NCBI RefSeq assembly: GCF_007290395.2
Contig: NZ_CP041656.2
Location: 2,728,001-2,792,000, forward strand
Reading direction: 5' to 3'
Origin: Bradyrhizobium cosmicum
Lineage (GTDB): Bacteria > Pseudomonadota > Alphaproteobacteria > Rhizobiales > Xanthobacteraceae
Length of the DNA: 64,000 nt
Part shown: one piece after another, positions 14,428 through 23,524 of the stretch
Layout: every line of letters begins with the position of its first letter
Numbering within the stretch: position 1 is the first letter of the stretch
Position numbers and translations under genes: made by a program
Notes under the pieces: generated by a model
The model's database searches: none
Told to the model about the DNA's origin: nothing
What the model saw: the letters and a program-made list of their open reading frames with translations, nothing else

Positions 14428-15081
14428 CTAAATCCTCGTCAGTCCACACGTCGCGGCCAGCCGCACCAGCTGTGCGTCCGTGCGCGCACCGGTCTTGGTC
14501 TTGATCAGGTAGTGATAGTTCTGCACCGTCTTCACACTGAGATTGAGATGCGCCGCGATCTGTTCGGTGGTGGCCCCGCCGGCGAACTGGCGCAGGATCT
14601 CGATCTCGCGCTCGCCCAACTGATCCAGCACTGAGCCGGTCGGCGACAGGCTCTCCTCGGCCAGGATATGTGCGATGTCGTCGCTCATGGCACGTTCGCC
14701 CCGGGCGATGCTGCGGATCGCGGCAACGACCGCGGACGGTTCGCTGCTCTTGGTGACGAAGCCAGCGGCGCCGGCGCCGAAGGCGGCCTTCACCAGCACG
14801 GCCTCGTTGTGCATGGTGAAGACGAGAATCCGCGCCCGCGGGGACCACGCGCGGATGTTGCGGATCGCCTCCAGCCCGCTCGCGCCGGGCATCGAGATAT
14901 CCAGCAGGACAACGTCGGGATCGTGCGCCTTGAAGGCGGTGTAGGCATCCGCGGCGTTGTCGGCTTCCGCCACGACGTGAAGGTTCCCCTGGCTTTCCAG
15001 CACGCGACGGTAGCCTTGCCGCACGATTGGATGATCGTCCACCAGCAGCACGGAGATGCCTGTCGTTGCAACCTCGCTCAT
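14428..15081 (-). CDS. NarL/FixJ-type response regulator
   Basis: The 217-residue protein has a receiver domain (VLLVDDHPIVRQGYRRVLES; phosphoacceptor Asp in VLLDISMPG near residue 61; Lys in FVTKSSEP) and a C-terminal LuxR-type helix-turn-helix (GATTEQIAAHLNLSVKTVQN). It is encoded 7 bases downstream of its cognate histidine kinase in the same direction, so the two form an operon. The pair is divergent from the channel/kinase cluster starting at 16686, which makes that cluster a candidate target. The effector signal is unknown. Confidence 0.92.
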   Translation of the reverse strand: MSEVATTGISVLLVDDHPIVRQGYRRVLESQGNLHVVAEADNAADAYTAFKAHDPDVVLLDISMPGASGLEAIRNIRAWSPRARILVFTMHNEAVLVKAAFGAGAAGFVTKSSEPSAVVAAIRSIARGERAMSDDIAHILAEESLSPTGSVLDQLGEREIEILRQFAGGATTEQIAAHLNLSVKTVQNYHYLIKTKTGARTDAQLVRLAATCGLTRI

Positions 15082-15088
15082 CGAGCCC

Positions 15089-16471
15089 TCATGCGGCGAG
15101 CGGAATGGTGGCGGCGACGCTCAGGCCGCCTCTGGCGGGCAGGATCGACAGCGATCCGCCGGCGGCCGCCACGCGTTCGCGAATACCGGTGAGACCGAAG
15201 CCGGCCGACCGCGCAACGCGGGTCGCATCGCCGCCGCCGTCATCCTCGACGCGGATCAGAAGCGCATCGTCCTCGCCCACGCGCCGCTCGACGCACAAGG
15301 AAATCTCGCGTGCCGAGCTGTGGCGCAGCGCGTTGGTCAGGCATTCCTGGGCGATGCGATAGGCGGTGGTGGCAGCCGCGCCGCTGATGTCGGTGAGATC
15401 GCCCCTGAGATCGAGCTGGATCGTCGGCCGCGCCGTGCTCTGGGAACGCCAGCTGTCGACGAGATTGACGAGGCTGGCCTCGAGCCCGAGCTCCTCGGGC
15501 AGAGGATTGCGGAGGCGCTTGAGCGCATCGCGCAGCGAGGCCATCAGATGATGGGTGGCTTGCGAGATCATGCGCGCGTCCTGCGCGATGCCGATATCCT
15601 TGCCCTCATCCTTGCCTTCCTTCGCGCTCGCCGTCTCGATGGTGTTGGCGAAGGCGAGGATGGCCGAGAGATTCTGCCCGAACTCGTCGTGCAGCTCGCG
15701 GGCGAGCGCGCGGCGCTCGTCGTCGCGGATCTCGATCAGGCGCCGGGTGAGCGCCGCGCGCTGCTCGGTCGCTTCTTCCAACCGGCCGCCGAGCTGGCTA
15801 ACGGCGCCGCCGATCATCGCAAGCTCCATCGAACGGAAGCGCGGCAGCTTCGTGCGGTAATGGCCGCGCGCCATGCGCTGGAGCGCAGTGACGATGGTGC
15901 GCGCCGGCGCCAGCGCATGCGCGATCGCAATCGAGGCCAGAAGCGCGATCGCCACCGCCATCAAGAGCGCAACGTCGATCACGTTGAGGATGTACTCCCA
16001 GGCGAGCGTGATCGCGGCTGCTGCATCCGGTGTCGCGACGACGGCGCCGGCCGCCGCGGCGCGCGGACTGACGGGGCGCACGACCTCGGCGTGGCTGCCG
16101 AGGAAGGTCGGCACGATCGAGGCGAACCAGCGCGGTGGCGTCTTGCCGATGCCCTGGCTCTGGCCGCAGAGCGGCTTTTCGAATGCCGCGGCCGGCTGGA
16201 ACTCGACGCACACGCCGGGGGAGATCAGCTTCATCATATCGAGGGTACGCCAGTCCGGAACCGGCAACAGATGCTCGCGCGCTCTGCTGCTGCGCAACAG
16301 GAGTTCCTGCCAGTACAGCGCTTGAAGCGCATGCGCGACCCGCTGCGCCGAGGCGGCAGTCGCCCGGTCGACACTGCGGTAGGCGTCGAACGTGGCCCAC
16401 ACGGTCGCCGCGCCAAGGCAGAGCGCGACGATGAGAAGCAGACGGGCGACAAGCTGAAGCACGAGGCGCAT
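15089..16471 (-). CDS. NarL-family sensor histidine kinase, membrane-bound
   Basis: This 460-residue kinase has an N-terminal membrane helix (residues 1-28; LVLQLVARLLLIVALCLGAA), a periplasmic sensor of about 130 residues, a second helix near 170, a HAMP-like linker, a HisKA_3 domain (phosphoacceptor His in LARELHDEFGQ, near 260) and an HATPase domain (GFGLTGIRERV). The ATG at 16471 gives a natural signal anchor. The open frame extends further upstream but that part has no protein character. It is the first gene of an operon with the response regulator. Confidence 0.9.
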   Translation of the reverse strand: MRLVLQLVARLLLIVALCLGAATVWATFDAYRSVDRATAASAQRVAHALQALYWQELLLRSSRAREHLLPVPDWRTLDMMKLISPGVCVEFQPAAAFEKPLCGQSQGIGKTPPRWFASIVPTFLGSHAEVVRPVSPRAAAAGAVVATPDAAAAITLAWEYILNVIDVALLMAVAIALLASIAIAHALAPARTIVTALQRMARGHYRTKLPRFRSMELAMIGGAVSQLGGRLEEATEQRAALTRRLIEIRDDERRALARELHDEFGQNLSAILAFANTIETASAKEGKDEGKDIGIAQDARMISQATHHLMASLRDALKRLRNPLPEELGLEASLVNLVDSWRSQSTARPTIQLDLRGDLTDISGAAATTAYRIAQECLTNALRHSSAREISLCVERRVGEDDALLIRVEDDGGGDATRVARSAGFGLTGIRERVAAAGGSLSILPARGGLSVAATIPLAA

Positions 16472-16685
16472 GCGATCACCCTCAACGTTTGGTAGGGTCA
16501 GCCTAACAACGCCGCCGCGCCTTGCCAATTGCAGGGTTCGGGCCGGATCGCAGGTCGGGCAAATTTCCCAAGCCGGATTGGGCATGGCTCTTTGGACGGG
16601 GCGCGGCGACTTTGATCTAATCGGCGAGGAAGCGTTGCAGGTCAGTCCTTGCAAGCCAGTCCCTGCAAGCCAGGAGCAGTGCAGC

Positions 16686-17486
16686 ATGAGTTCGATGACG
16701 ATTGGGCCGATCGCGGGCTCTGCTGCCGACCCGTCCGAGCGCAGCGCGCTGCTGTTCTGGATGATCTTCACCGGGCTTTCGGTCTTCGCCGTCGTGCTGC
16801 TGTGGCGGTTCGGCCTGATCCGTCTGATGCTGGCTTCGGACCGCACCTACATCTCCAGCGTGATCGCGCTGCTCTATGTTCTGACCTGTGGTCACTGCTT
16901 CCTGCGCACACGGGCGATCGCCCGTGAAGGCGCGGCGGCCCGACGCTGCCGCGCGGTGCTCGCGGCGCCCGGGGGCAGCAAGGCGCTGGATGCGAGCGCG
17001 GCGACGCTGCCGCACGGGCTGGTGCGTGACCACATCGAGAGCCTGGTGACCAAGGCCGCTGCGCAGGACTACCGGCGGGTCGACCAGACGCTCCTGCTGA
17101 GGACACTCGCCGACCGCCTGAGGGGCTCCAACGGTTTCGGCGCGTTCGTCTCGGACACGCTGATGAAGCTCGGATTGCTCGGCACCATCGTCGGCTTCAT
17201 CATCATGCTGGCGCCGATCGCGGGGCTCGATGCCGCCGACAAGGTCGCGATGCGCTCGTCGATGGGGCTGATGAGCGACGGCATGGCGGTCGCGATGTAC
17301 ACGACGCTGGCGGGCCTGGTCGGCTCGATCCTGGTCCGCATCCAGTACTACATGCTGGATGCCGCGACCCAGCGGGTATTCTCGGACGCGGTGGTGCTGA
17401 CCGAGACCTATGTGACGCCGGTGCTGGAGCGCCAAGGCGTTGAACCTAAAGGCGTTGAACCTAAAGGCGCTGGAACCTCGTCATGA
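16686..17486 (+). CDS. MotA/TolQ/ExbB-type proton channel protein
   Basis: The 266-residue protein has about four membrane helices: residues 18-40 (LFWMIFTGLSVFAVVLLW), 55-75, 160-182 (LMKLGLLGTIVGFIIML) and 205-230. The last two with the linking ISSMGL-like loop match the ExbB/TolQ/MotA family, which conducts protons to drive a partner protein. AGGAG lies 10 bases before the ATG. The C-terminus ends in a tandem repeat (GVEPKGVEPKG) encoded by two exact 15-base units at 17436-17465. The stop codon overlaps the next start (ATGA). It is the first gene of a five-gene cluster, and its usual ExbD/MotB partner is absent; the next gene may take that role. Confidence 0.82.
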   Translation: MSSMTIGPIAGSAADPSERSALLFWMIFTGLSVFAVVLLWRFGLIRLMLASDRTYISSVIALLYVLTCGHCFLRTRAIAREGAAARRCRAVLAAPGGSKALDASAATLPHGLVRDHIESLVTKAAAQDYRRVDQTLLLRTLADRLRGSNGFGAFVSDTLMKLGLLGTIVGFIIMLAPIAGLDAADKVAMRSSMGLMSDGMAVAMYTTLAGLVGSILVRIQYYMLDAATQRVFSDAVVLTETYVTPVLERQGVEPKGVEPKGAGTSS

Positions 17487-18169
17487 TGGACGACTTTGGT
17501 CTCTATCCGCGCGAGGAGCCGTTCGATCCGCTGGGCGTGATGCTGTTCAAGGCGCTCCAGGTGATCGCGTTCCTGTTCTTCCTGGCGCTGCTCGCGGTCT
17601 CGCCGGATGCCAAGGAAGGCAAGATCGACTCCAAGGCGGAGTTCATGATCACGCTGGACTGGCCAGACAGCCACCCCGACGATCTCGACCTGTTCGTGCA
17701 GGATCCCGCCGGCAACATCGCCTGGTATCGCCATCGCGAGGCCGGCTTCCTCACGCTCGACCGCGACGACCGTGGCGGCGCCAACGATTTCATCATGGTC
17801 AACGGCAAGAAGATCGCCTCGCCCATCCGCGAGGAGATCGTCACCGTGCGCGGCATCGTCCCCGGGGAATACACCGTCAACGTCTCGCATTTCGCCGCAA
17901 CGACCGGCGAGCCGGTGACGGCGAATGTGAAGGTGCAGAAGCTCAATCCGACCGCGCAGGTGGTCTTCGACAACAAGTTCACGCTCGATCATACCGGCCA
18001 CGAGAAGACGGCGGTGCGGTTCCGACTCGATGCCGAAGGCAAGGTGGTCAATGTGGACCAGCGGCCGAAATCGCTGCTGGAGACGTTCCGTAGCAGCTGG
18101 CGCAACGGCGCCGATCTCGATCCGAGTACCGGTGTGAGCAAGAACGCTGCGAGGGTGCGCCGTGACTAG
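17483..18169 (+). CDS. Single-span membrane protein with YfaP-like (DUF2135-like) periplasmic domain
   Basis: This 228-residue protein starts with a short cytoplasmic segment ending in EEPFDPLGVMLFKAL, one membrane helix (about 20-41) and a periplasmic region. PF.D..VML just before or within the helix resembles the ExbD/MotB proton-binding segment. The periplasmic part (WPDSHPDDLDLFVQDPAGN, LDRDDRGG, VPGEYTVNVSHF) looks like the beta-sandwich of YfaP/DUF2135 proteins; that match is from memory of the motif pattern. It overlaps the channel gene by 4 bases, so the two are translationally coupled. I infer that it is the channel's stator-like partner. Confidence 0.65.
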   Translation: MMDDFGLYPREEPFDPLGVMLFKALQVIAFLFFLALLAVSPDAKEGKIDSKAEFMITLDWPDSHPDDLDLFVQDPAGNIAWYRHREAGFLTLDRDDRGGANDFIMVNGKKIASPIREEIVTVRGIVPGEYTVNVSHFAATTGEPVTANVKVQKLNPTAQVVFDNKFTLDHTGHEKTAVRFRLDAEGKVVNVDQRPKSLLETFRSSWRNGADLDPSTGVSKNAARVRRD

Positions 18170-18767
18170 TCTGCAAACGGTCATCCTCACGCTGTCGGTG
18201 GCCTACGCCGCGATAGGCGCGCTGCTGCTGGTCGTGCTGGTCTATGCGCGGCTGCACTGGTCGCTGAAGGCGGTAGCGGTGGTCGTGACCAGCGCCTTCT
18301 ATGTCGTCAGCTTCACGGAAATGCGCGGGCTGCTCGGCTGGGCCAGCGCTGACCGGCTGCCCACGTCCTTCAAGCTGCTCCAGGCGCGCATCGTCGAGCC
18401 GCATTCGCTCGAGGGCGATCCCGGCTCGGTCTATCTCTGGGTCGAGCAGCTGGACGAGGACAATCGCCCGAGCGGCATCCCCCGGGCCTTCCGCATGCCC
18501 TACGAAGACAGGCTGGCCGACAAGACCCACGCAGCGCAGAACGAGATCGCGCTGGGGCATCCGCAAGGCGGGCGCGCGGCCGATTTCGGCGGCGGTGACG
18601 GCAGCCTGATCGACATGGTCCGGGAATACGTGACGCCCAAGACGATCGTGGAGACGACCGGCGGCGATTCCTCGACCGGTGAATTCATTGCGCCGCCGGC
18701 CGGCGCGCAAGGCGCCCTGTTCACGCCACTGCCGCCGCCCCGGATGCCGCCAAAGGACGAGCAATAG
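18162..18767 (+). CDS. Conserved-looking membrane protein of the channel cluster, unknown function
   Basis: The 201-residue product has two N-terminal helices (residues 5-28 and 33-52), then about 150 soluble residues with no recognised domain (for instance SVYLWVEQLDEDNRPSG and IPRAFRMPYEDRLADKTH) and a proline-rich tail (PPPRMPPK). It overlaps the preceding gene by 8 bases, so it belongs to the same transcript. The position suggests an accessory subunit of the channel complex. I do not recognise a family. Confidence 0.7.
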   Translation: MTSLQTVILTLSVAYAAIGALLLVVLVYARLHWSLKAVAVVVTSAFYVVSFTEMRGLLGWASADRLPTSFKLLQARIVEPHSLEGDPGSVYLWVEQLDEDNRPSGIPRAFRMPYEDRLADKTHAAQNEIALGHPQGGRAADFGGGDGSLIDMVREYVTPKTIVETTGGDSSTGEFIAPPAGAQGALFTPLPPPRMPPKDEQ

Positions 18768-18884
18768 CCTCTTCACCATCGCGGGGTGCCCGCGCTGGTA
18801 AACATTCCCGTGCTGGCGCATCCTGTTGACCTCCCTCAATTTGGCCTTATCGGCTTCCAATAAGAAGTTGAGGGTGGAGGGCGC

Positions 18885-19625
18885 GTGCTTCTCGCTGTTT
18901 TCTCGGATATCCACGGCAACCGGCAGGCGTTCGAGGCGTGCCTGAAGGCGGCGCGTGCGAAGGGCGCGGAGCGGTTCGTCCTGCTCGGCGATTTCGTCGG
19001 CTATGGCGCGGATCCCGAATGGGTCGTGGACACCGCGATGGAGCTGGCGGCCCAGGGGGCCGTCGCCGTGCGCGGCAATCATGATGAAGCCGTCAACACC
19101 ACGACCGAGACCATGAATGCCGAGGCGCAGATCGCGATCGAATGGACCCGCGGGCGGCTCGACGTCGCGCAGCGGCGCTTTCTGGCCGAGCTGCCGATGA
19201 CTGTGGACGAGAAGGAGCGCCTTTACGTCCACTCGGAGGCTTCACAGCCGACGCGCTGGCACTATGTCCGTGCCACCGCCGACGCGGCCAAGAGCCTGAT
19301 CTCGACCCCCGCCCATGTCACCTTCTGCGGCCACGTCCATCGCCCCGCGCTCTATTCGATGTCGGTGACGGCGAAGATGACGAGCTTCGTGCCGAAGACC
19401 GACGTTCCCGTGCAGCTCCTGCGCGGGCGGCAATGGCTGGCGGTGCTGGGCTCGGTCGGCCAGCCCCGCGACGGCGATCCATCCGCGGCGTTCGTTCTGT
19501 TCGACACGGAGTCGTGCGAGATCACCTATTGCCGCGCGCCCTATGACATCGCGAGCGCTGCGAACAAGATTCGCGAGAATGGCCTGCCGCCTTGGCTGGC
19601 CGATCGCCTGTCGCTGGGGCGCTAG
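18885..19625 (+). CDS. Calcineurin-like metallophosphoesterase
   Basis: The 246-residue enzyme shows all five metal-binding blocks: FSDIHGN at the start, LLGDFVGYG (near 38), VRGNHDEA (near 65), a TFCGHVH block (near 148) with the preceding His/Pro-rich loop. It starts at a GTG with GGAGG close upstream. This architecture covers diadenosine tetraphosphatases, protein phosphatases and cyclic-nucleotide phosphodiesterases. Because the next gene, 6 bases on, encodes a Ser/Thr kinase, a phosphoprotein phosphatase acting against that kinase is a reasonable inference. A 117-base gap separates it from the channel genes. Confidence 0.88.
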   Translation: MLLAVFSDIHGNRQAFEACLKAARAKGAERFVLLGDFVGYGADPEWVVDTAMELAAQGAVAVRGNHDEAVNTTTETMNAEAQIAIEWTRGRLDVAQRRFLAELPMTVDEKERLYVHSEASQPTRWHYVRATADAAKSLISTPAHVTFCGHVHRPALYSMSVTAKMTSFVPKTDVPVQLLRGRQWLAVLGSVGQPRDGDPSAAFVLFDTESCEITYCRAPYDIASAANKIRENGLPPWLADRLSLGR

Positions 19626-19631
19626 AGACCG

Positions 19632-21053
19632 ATGCCCAAACCTCTGGTCAAATCAGGCGCGGTGATCGACGGCTACACCATCGGCGAATGCGTCCATGCC
19701 GGCGGCATGGCGACGCTGTGGACCGTCACCCATCCCGGCATCGACGTGCCGCTGCTGATGAAGATCCCGCGGGTCTCGGAGGGCGAGGATCCCGCCGCGA
19801 TCGTCTCCTTCGAGATGGAGATGATGATCCTGCCCCGACTCGCTGGTCCGCATGTCCCGGCCTGCTTCGGTACCGGCGATTTCGCGCACCAGGCCTATGC
19901 CGTGATCGAGCGCATTCCGGGCATCACGCTCTACAAGCGGTTGCCGGATTTGCCGCTGCCTTACGAGGAGGCGCGGCTGCTGGTGTCGAAGATCGCGGCC
20001 GCGCTGGCCGATCTGCACCGGCAGAACGTGATCCATCACGACATCAAGCCGAGCAGCATCATGTTCCGTGATAGCGGCGAAGCCGTGCTGATCGACTACG
20101 GCCTGTCGCACCACAACCATTTGCCGGATTTGTTGCAGGAGGAATTCCGACTGCCTTACGGCACCGCGCCCTATATGGCGCCGGAACGGCTGCTCGGCGT
20201 GCGCGACGATCCGCGCAGCGATCTGTTCTCGCTCGGCGTGCTGCTCTACTTCTTCACGACCGGCGAGCGGCCGTTCGGCGAGGGCGAGACGCTGCGCGCG
20301 ATGCGGCGCAGGCTGTGGCGCGATCCGCATCCGCCGCGCGAATTGCGTGCCGACTATCCACCCTGGCTGCAGGAGGTGGTGCTGCGGTGTCTGGAGATCG
20401 AGCCGGTCCGGCGCTACCCCACCGCGTCCCAGCTCGCCTTCGATCTGGCCCATCCGGACCAGGTCAGGCTGACCGCGCGTTCGGAGCGGATGAAGCGCGA
20501 TCCCTGGAGCGTCGCCTGGCGGCGCCGCTTCAACCAGGGCGTCATGGCGCCGCGTGCGAAATCCGACGTTGCCGCCCAGATCGCCTCCAGCCCGATCATC
20601 GCGGTTGCGCTCGACGCCGCGGAAGGCGCGCCCGAATTGAACGAGGCGCTGCGCGTGACGACCGAGCGCATCCTTGCCACGTTGCCGTCGGCGCGGCTTG
20701 CCTGCGTCAATGTGCTGAAGCTCAATCGCCTTGCGGTCGACCGGACGCTGGACGAGCAGGGCTCCAACAAGCATGTCGACCGCCTGGTGGCGCTCAGGCA
20801 TTGGGCGACGCCGCTCAAGCTGGACGAGAGCCGGCTGTCGGTTCATGTGCTGGAAGCGGTCGATCCCGCCTCGGCGCTGCTGGAGTTCGCCGAGGTCAAC
20901 CAGGTCGACCATGTGATCATCGGCGCGCGGCAGAGCTCGTTCCGGCGCACGCTGCTCGGCAGCGTTTCGGCCAAGGTGGCCGCGGAATCGGCCTGCACCG
21001 TGACCGTGGTGCGACCGCCCCGGATGGCTGCGGATGCGGAAGAGGCCAGGTAG
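19632..21053 (+). CDS. Serine/threonine protein kinase fused to a universal stress (UspA) domain
   Basis: Residues about 10-275 form a Hanks-type kinase: a loose glycine loop (VHAGGMATLW), the lysine in LLMKIP, catalytic VIHHDIKPSS (HHD in place of HRD), metal site LIDYGLS (DYG in place of DFG), and APYMAPERLLG. Residues about 320-465 form a UspA-like domain ending in GSVSAKVAAESACTVTVVR, which matches the Usp nucleotide-binding end. There is no membrane helix, so it is cytoplasmic. It directly follows the phosphoesterase. It probably phosphorylates proteins in response to a nucleotide or stress signal read by the Usp part. Confidence 0.88.
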   Translation: MPKPLVKSGAVIDGYTIGECVHAGGMATLWTVTHPGIDVPLLMKIPRVSEGEDPAAIVSFEMEMMILPRLAGPHVPACFGTGDFAHQAYAVIERIPGITLYKRLPDLPLPYEEARLLVSKIAAALADLHRQNVIHHDIKPSSIMFRDSGEAVLIDYGLSHHNHLPDLLQEEFRLPYGTAPYMAPERLLGVRDDPRSDLFSLGVLLYFFTTGERPFGEGETLRAMRRRLWRDPHPPRELRADYPPWLQEVVLRCLEIEPVRRYPTASQLAFDLAHPDQVRLTARSERMKRDPWSVAWRRRFNQGVMAPRAKSDVAAQIASSPIIAVALDAAEGAPELNEALRVTTERILATLPSARLACVNVLKLNRLAVDRTLDEQGSNKHVDRLVALRHWATPLKLDESRLSVHVLEAVDPASALLEFAEVNQVDHVIIGARQSSFRRTLLGSVSAKVAAESACTVTVVRPPRMAADAEEAR

Positions 21054-22675: not shown

Positions 22676-22729
22676 GACTTCACCGCCAGAACATTGGTTG
22701 CGGCGTGCCGCATCGGTTGGAGTTGTGCA

Positions 22730-23524
22730 ATGTTGCTCGCCCTTGGTGCCGTATCGAGCGCGCTCGACGCGATCCAATCGCTGACGAACTCGGAATCGTC
22801 ATCGTCGACGCAGAAGGCCGACTCGGCGCAGAAGACCGGGGCCCGGCAAGGCACGACCAGCGCGTTCGCGGTCGACAATCCCGGCAACATCGTGAGCTCG
22901 CTGACCCCAAGCAAGGGTCCACAGCTCTCGCCGGAGACGATGAACGCGCTGTTCGCCGCGCAGAGCCAGTCGTCCACCAGCACGAACAGCACCGCCAGCT
23001 CGACCTCATCCAGCTCGACCTCCTCGACATCGACCAGTCGGGATGCGTCGCTGAAGGACCTGTTCTCGCAGATCGATGGCGACGGCGACGGCAAGATCAC
23101 CAAATCCGAGTTCGAGAACGCGCTGGGAGCCGGGGGCACCAACCTCGCGAAGGCCGACGACGTCTTCTCGAAAATGGATTCGAACTCCGACGGTAGCGTC
23201 AGCCTGGACGAGATGTCGAAGGCGCTGAAGAGCGGCCATCATGGTCACCACGCGCAAGGAGCCAGCGGTTCGGGCGATGGATCGGATTCCTCGTCGTCGT
23301 CGAGCGGCGGGTCGACATCGACCACGACGACCGCCGCCGACGGCTCGACCACCACCACCGTCACCTATGCCGACGGCTTCAAGATGTCGACGACGGTCCC
23401 CGGCGCCTCCGGCTCCTCCGGCAATTCGGCCTATGATCTGTTCGCGCAGTTGATGCAGCGGCAAGGAGGGCAGGGGCAAGGCGCCTCCGCGGCTGCCGGC
23501 TCGTCGATGTCGATGAGTGTCTGA
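22730..23524 (+). CDS. EF-hand calcium-binding protein with Ser/Thr-rich linkers
   Basis: The 264-residue protein carries two EF-hand loops: DGDGDGKITKSEFE (near residue 122) and DSNSDGSVSLDEM (near 155), each with the Asp/Asn ligands and a closing Glu. It is flanked by low-complexity Ser/Thr runs (SSSTSSTSTS; GGSTSTTTTA) and a His-rich stretch (HHGHHAQG). I chose the ATG at 22730 (GGAG 7 bases upstream); ATG at 22694 is an alternative. No clear signal peptide is seen. It is transcribed from the sigma-54 promoter at 22660-22675. Xanthomonas-type secreted EF-hand proteins are the nearest look-alikes; function unknown. Confidence 0.82.
   Translation: MLLALGAVSSALDAIQSLTNSESSSSTQKADSAQKTGARQGTTSAFAVDNPGNIVSSLTPSKGPQLSPETMNALFAAQSQSSTSTNSTASSTSSSSTSSTSTSRDASLKDLFSQIDGDGDGKITKSEFENALGAGGTNLAKADDVFSKMDSNSDGSVSLDEMSKALKSGHHGHHAQGASGSGDGSDSSSSSSGGSTSTTTTAADGSTTTTVTYADGFKMSTTVPGASGSSGNSAYDLFAQLMQRQGGQGQGASAAAGSSMSMSV

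Follow-up and report, generated by a model that had tools for sequence, protein, structure and literature searches.

A conserved trio of MotA/ExbB-type membrane genes in Bradyrhizobium cosmicum is genomically linked to quinoproteins and separate from a neighbouring phosphoesterase–kinase pair

Five genes lie on the same strand within a 64,000-nucleotide stretch of the Bradyrhizobium cosmicum genome (contig NZ_CP041656.2, positions 2,728,001 to 2,792,000; hereafter the window). Here we show that genes 1–3, which encode a MotA/ExbB-family channel subunit, a single-span membrane partner and a two-span membrane protein, form a conserved trio, while genes 4 and 5, a metallophosphoesterase and a kinase–Usp fusion, are a separate unit. 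Outside the window, the trio often lies inside gene clusters of alcohol dehydrogenases that depend on pyrroloquinoline quinone (PQQ) or beside pqqBCE, in two classes of bacteria. The genomic link between the trio and quinoproteins is well supported.

Gene 2 occurred in 14 genomes of a 150-genome sample of the order; 13 of the matches were close (E 1e-51 or better), and the remaining genome (G022, E 6e-9) was dropped. A set of named loci comprised the best 80 of 414, and those nearest to the window locus belong to Bradyrhizobium. The 112 stretches include seven genomes twice and were recounted as 105 distinct loci carrying a gene-2 relative, which leaves the gene 3 and gene 4 counts unaffected. 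All three trio genes were present in 101 of these 105 loci, so that one part of the original prediction for this locus, a channel-type membrane unit encoded by genes 1–3, is borne out.

Genomes with the trio are enriched in dehydrogenases of the family TIGR03075, for which the cut-off was E<=1e-50 with the order set and 1e-140 with the family and class sets. TIGR03075 was found in all 13 trio genomes of the order set (against 42 of 137 others), in all 21 of the family set (against 44 of 128) and in 15 of 21 in the class set (against 50 of 268, these others including 14 genomes with gene-2 matches at E 1e-34 to 1e-43 and 5 with weaker ones). Among the 14 genomes with such intermediate matches, 4 have TIGR03075. 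The order and family sets have genomes in common, and the naive Fisher p values (8e-7, 3e-9 and 8e-7 for order, family and class) are indications only, since the samples overlap and are phylogenetically structured. TIGR03075 was also present in 13 of the 18 class genomes of at most 2.5 Mb that carry a close trio, and genome size alone is therefore no explanation. As a base-rate control, TIGR03075 was counted in order genomes that carry the phosphoesterase–kinase pair outside the window's own genus; it was present in 5 of 14 of them and in 50 of the 136 other genomes.

Quinoprotein markers were found within about 10 kb of the trio in 8 of 32 order and family loci and in 10 of 20 class loci. The named loci, mostly Bradyrhizobium, gave 5 of 80, or 6 if the least specific marker is included; one of them, L072, duplicates the genome of L043. 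No marker was detected at 13 loci of the phosphoesterase–kinase pair or in 17 arbitrary stretches from trio genomes. Co-occurrence and linkage both lie above their controls, in comparisons that do not model kinship, and a functional link of the trio to quinoproteins is quite probable.

The trio is embedded in xoxF/lut/pqq clusters in some genomes. At locus L031, a single strand carries a relay hydrolase gene (TIGR04559), pqqB, pqqC (named by similarity), pqqE, genes for a pentapeptide protein and a Sel1-like protein, and then the trio, beyond which lies a TIGR03075 dehydrogenase. TIGR03863 and TIGR03861 adjoin the trio in L034. A TIGR03075 enzyme is present in L043 (the same genome as L072), where the neighbours of the dehydrogenase were read by eye as a cytochrome, a glutathione–formaldehyde dehydrogenase and its activator. 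In genomes of 1.4–1.7 Mb (L148–L152), the dehydrogenase gene is convergent to the trio; in L149 it stops at gene 3 and includes a cytochrome c domain. Among loci from another class of the phylum, L201 places the trio after pqqB, pqqC and pqqE on one strand, and L200 combines, within 10 kb, a NarL-type kinase–regulator pair with a TIGR03075 dehydrogenase and a TonB-type receptor; L199, the third locus of this family, showed weak marker matches only (48 and 69 bits) and was not counted as linked. L154, whose ABC and YVTN-type neighbours were detected with the threshold lowered, was excluded from the marker counts. The trio lies inside a xoxF cluster in L072, L075 and L076 (one Rhodopseudomonas metagenome-assembled genome and two Bradyrhizobium), and in G283, a genome of the window's genus, the sole copy of gene 2 lies in a xoxF-type cluster.

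Gene 1 matched the MotA_ExbB family (PF01618) at 35.1 bits, above the curated cut-off of 22.9, which places it in the superfamily, as had been proposed. Hydrophobicity analysis gave four segments (residues 21–39, 55–73, 162–180 and 199–217), and the motifs GLxGTxxGF (containing T167) and YTT (T206/T207) were unchanged in all 32 sequences. The nearest solved chains by profile were 8vvn (E 0.007), a 696-residue protein with a MotA/TolQ/ExbB domain that we take to be ZorA, followed by MotA (8gqy, E 0.02). Against the TolQ equivalog TIGR02796, gene 1 scored 10.8 bits, below the cut-off of 221.

Gene 2 has a membrane helix at residues 16–39, directly preceded by Asp15, at the N-terminal end of the helix; this residue is invariant in all 29 sequences. 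A beta-sandwich is predicted at about residues 52–206, and the predicted fold is nearest to TerD structures. At the level of sequence, none of the 29 gene-2 members matched TerD (PF02342) at E<=5, and an hhalign comparison with one TerD sequence gave an E-value of 0.28. TerD itself was present in 1 of the 150 order genomes. The partner had earlier been called YfaP-like. Of the 29 gene-2 sequences, 5 matched DUF2135 (PF09906), presumably the YfaP domain, below threshold and with a best E of 0.0018, which lends the label some weak support; the window protein itself is unmatched, and its fold is closest to TerD. ExbD/TolR was absent from the eight Pfam families that matched any of the 29 members at E<=5. 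Gene 3 matched no Pfam family at E<=0.1, and no convincing fold match was found for it.

The trio thus resembles MotA/MotB, ExbB/ExbD and TolQ/TolR in combining a channel subunit of the family with a single-span partner that has an Asp at its membrane helix. It differs from them by the TerD-like domain of the partner, by a third, two-span protein, by its score below the TolQ cut-off and by the lack of an ExbD/TolR Pfam match. Gene 2 also differs from the TerD calcium-binding stress proteins, since its predicted TerD-like domain is fused to a membrane helix and is not recognised by the TerD Pfam model in any of the 29 members.

We lean towards an interpretation in which the trio is a proton-driven envelope complex for periplasmic PQQ-dependent alcohol dehydrogenases that moves or loads PQQ or calcium/lanthanide, with the phosphoesterase–kinase pair independent of it. 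Genes 1–3 would form a single complex of the MotA/ExbB/TolQ superfamily, with gene 1 as the channel oligomer, gene 2 as its single-span partner subunit and gene 3 as an accessory membrane protein. By analogy with the superfamily, the channel would be oligomeric and its partner proton-driven; Asp15 would carry the proton, and it is, as would be expected in a proton motor, an acidic residue of the partner that lies at the membrane helix and is invariant. The periplasmic TerD-like domain of gene 2 would be the output arm. The complex would serve XoxF-type and related PQQ-dependent alcohol dehydrogenases and, judging from the genomic context, its work would concern PQQ or the calcium/lanthanide ion of the dehydrogenase; most likely, the proton gradient would be used to move or load one of these. 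The stoichiometry, topology, metal binding and cargo assigned to such a complex are putative. More tentative, and on balance doubtful, is the bolder proposal of a previously undescribed proton machine, in which the channel powers a TerD-like calcium/lanthanide-binding arm that delivers the metal or PQQ, or moves PQQ across the envelope.

Alternatively, the trio could be a general envelope-stress or outer-membrane-integrity complex, similar to Tol, and its tendency to lie in accessory metabolic regions would then be incidental. The MotA/ExbB channel family has several known jobs, the window trio is without an adjoining quinoprotein, and 6 of the 21 close-trio class genomes have no TIGR03075 match at the threshold, all of which would fit such a general role. 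However, a mere preference for accessory regions sits poorly with a link that holds in 13 of the 18 small class genomes and recurs in two classes and in several arrangements, or with markers being absent from both the 17 arbitrary stretches and the 13 pair loci. We therefore regard a Tol-like role as unlikely.

The original prediction had joined all five genes into one system, in which a proton-driven complex would have its activity set by the kinase–Usp protein and the phosphoesterase would reverse this. The open reading frames and their spacing are as it had described: genes 1 and 2 overlap by ATGA, genes 2 and 3 by 8 bases, and genes 4 and 5 are 6 bases apart. The gap from gene 3 to gene 4 is 117 bases. 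Its assignments of the last two genes likewise hold. Gene 4 matched Metallophos_2 (PF12850) at 72.7 bits and is closest among solved structures to 3rqz (E 1e-28), and gene 5 matched Pkinase (PF00069) at 93.7 bits and Usp (PF00582) at 52.0 bits; hydrophobicity analysis found no hydrophobic segment in gene 5.

The distribution of the genes argues against their being one system. Gene 5 was found in 18 order genomes (E<=1e-60), with gene 4 adjacent in all of them. Of these 18 genomes, 14 have the pair but no trio, and of the 13 with a close trio, 9 have no pair; the two are found together in four order genomes only, all of the window's genus. Among the loci examined, gene 4 lies near the trio only in 4 loci of the window's genus and in 47 named loci, all Bradyrhizobium. 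The gap between genes 3 and 4 is at most 200 bases in 28 of these 51 loci, which, together with the shared direction of the genes, favours a single system; in the other 23, however, it is 1.07–7.3 kb, and a TetR gene lies between them in 17 of the 23. Genes 4 and 5, by comparison, are at most 200 bases apart in all 61 stretches with both, including 13 pair-only stretches. A few trio loci have one member of the pair nearby, either gene 4 (L123, L139 and L039) or gene 5 (L126); L039 is truncated by the end of its stretch. The phosphoesterase/kinase–Usp pair is thus an independent unit that neighbours the trio in many Bradyrhizobium. The original prediction had itself proposed that the single-system idea would fail if the five-gene order were not conserved in related genomes, and this is largely what these loci and the order genomes show. 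With the trio and the pair mostly apart, a single phosphorylation-controlled system is very unlikely, and the idea was rejected.

A Zorya-like or other anti-phage system is more improbable still, even though gene 1 has 8vvn as its nearest solved chain and the best PADLOC matches are ZorA models for gene 1 (25.4 bits) and PD-T4-6 kinase models for gene 5 (173.7 bits): kinase domains score with a wide range of kinase models, gene 1 (266 residues) lacks the long ZorA tail and scored 17.5 bits with ZorA_2, whose cut-off is 100, and 16.0 and 14.6 bits with other ZorA models, whose cut-offs are 500 and 700, genes 2 and 3 match no PADLOC model, and the trio is linked to alcohol-oxidation genes. No ZorB, ZorC, ZorD or ZorE appeared among the PADLOC matches listed for the five genes scanned (for gene 5, the best 25 of 34). 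Most Bradyrhizobium loci lie at one purB–rpe place, which would be unlike a defence island. With the ZorA cut-offs unreached and genes 2 and 3 unmatched, an identity with Zorya was rejected. A mobile-element origin was also rejected, as one viral_contigs scan returned no relative and the PLSDB matches were limited to seven Azospirillum records at 31–33% identity.

Divergent from gene 1 is a NarL-type sensor kinase gene followed by that of its regulator (Table 1), and Pfam matches to HisKA_3/HATPase_c and Response_reg/GerE confirm the identities first given to them. Of the 105 distinct trio loci, 74 contain the sensor kinase and 72 have it divergent and less than 600 bases from gene 1; the response regulator adjoins it in most loci that hold it. 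Because of these locus counts, we consider that the two-component pair belongs with the trio in one clade, while the phosphoesterase–kinase pair is a mere neighbour. The two-component pair probably controls the trio in Bradyrhizobium and its neighbours. Two Cys residues in the N-terminal sensor stretch of the kinase (15089-16477, minus strand) recur, by eye, in the L026 relative and might serve redox or metal sensing. Elsewhere in the window, a few genes downstream of the five, the translation of an open reading frame at 22694-23524 (plus strand) contains EF-hand-like motifs by eye.

Table 1. Genes of the trio, the neighbouring pair and the divergent two-component system, in window coordinates.
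Feature	Coordinates	Strand	Pfam
Gene 1, MotA/ExbB-family channel subunit, 266 residues	16686..17486	+	PF01618
Gene 2, single-span partner, 228 residues	17483..18169	+	
Gene 3, two-span membrane protein, 201 residues, small soluble domain and low-confidence tail	18162..18767	+	
Gene 4, calcineurin-like metallophosphoesterase, separate module	18885..19625	+	PF12850
Gene 5, Hanks-type Ser/Thr kinase–Usp fusion, separate module	19632..21053	+	PF00069, PF00582
NarL/UhpB-type sensor histidine kinase, divergent from gene 1	15089..16477	-	HisKA_3, HATPase_c
NarL/FixJ-type response regulator, partner of the kinase	14428..15081	-	Response_reg, GerE

The window's genome, a single contig of 7.27 Mb, has a xoxF cluster of its own within positions 2205001-2245000, with TIGR03075 enzymes and SoxYZ-like, relay-hydrolase and PedC-type genes. 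By eye, its order matches that of the clusters in L072, L075 and L076, where the trio sits inside. Lanmodulin is also encoded in the cluster, at L171:8408-8797 (about positions 2233408-2233797), with 181 bits for NF053806, whose cut-off is 135, and it is therefore probable, from gene content, that the organism uses lanthanides. A tree of 125 gene-2 sequences was midpoint-rooted and its leaves were labelled by genomic context. Quinoprotein contexts are scattered over many lineages, while every kinase–regulator context falls within one clade of 88 leaves (support 0.996). Nested in this clade is a quinoprotein subclade of 6 leaves (0.997), the surrounding branches having low support. The simplest history would be an ancestral quinoprotein context with a later move beside the two-component pair and, in Bradyrhizobium, also beside the phosphoesterase–kinase pair.

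Several further genes recur around the trio. In eight loci (L027–L034), a Sel1-repeat protein is encoded upstream of gene 1 on the same strand, and in some of these a pentapeptide-repeat protein is encoded near gene 1; in the window, neither was observed next to the trio. Two conserved genes of unknown function lie between a SoxYZ-like carrier and the trio (L027:5465-6598 and L031:7293-8434). The requirements for XoxF function in Methylorubrum include a TonB receptor and an ABC transporter, along with the unknown genes orf6 and orf7, which are numbered next to pqqE (PMC7391723), and the L027 and L031 genes could be counterparts of these two. The 28-gene table in that paper contains no channel gene, and its text makes no mention of ExbB, TolQ or MotA (PMC7391723); the trio itself was not searched for in that organism. 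Three distant loci (L156:11628-12416, L199:11085-11780 and L200:11142-11855) encode, after the trio, a small exported protein that looks alike by eye, has no Pfam match in the L200 copy and may be a fourth member of the unit. Distant relatives of gene 2 (L035:3301-5043 and L036:9776-11077) each have small membrane neighbours of their own.

How PQQ reaches the periplasm and how alcohol dehydrogenases are loaded with calcium or lanthanide are poorly understood. If the trio does serve these enzymes, it would be a testable candidate for PQQ delivery or metal loading in quinoprotein clusters. It would also extend the few roles known for MotA/ExbB-type complexes and assign a function to genes present in many Bradyrhizobium as well as in other lineages of their phylum, including some whose genomes are 1.4 Mb in size.

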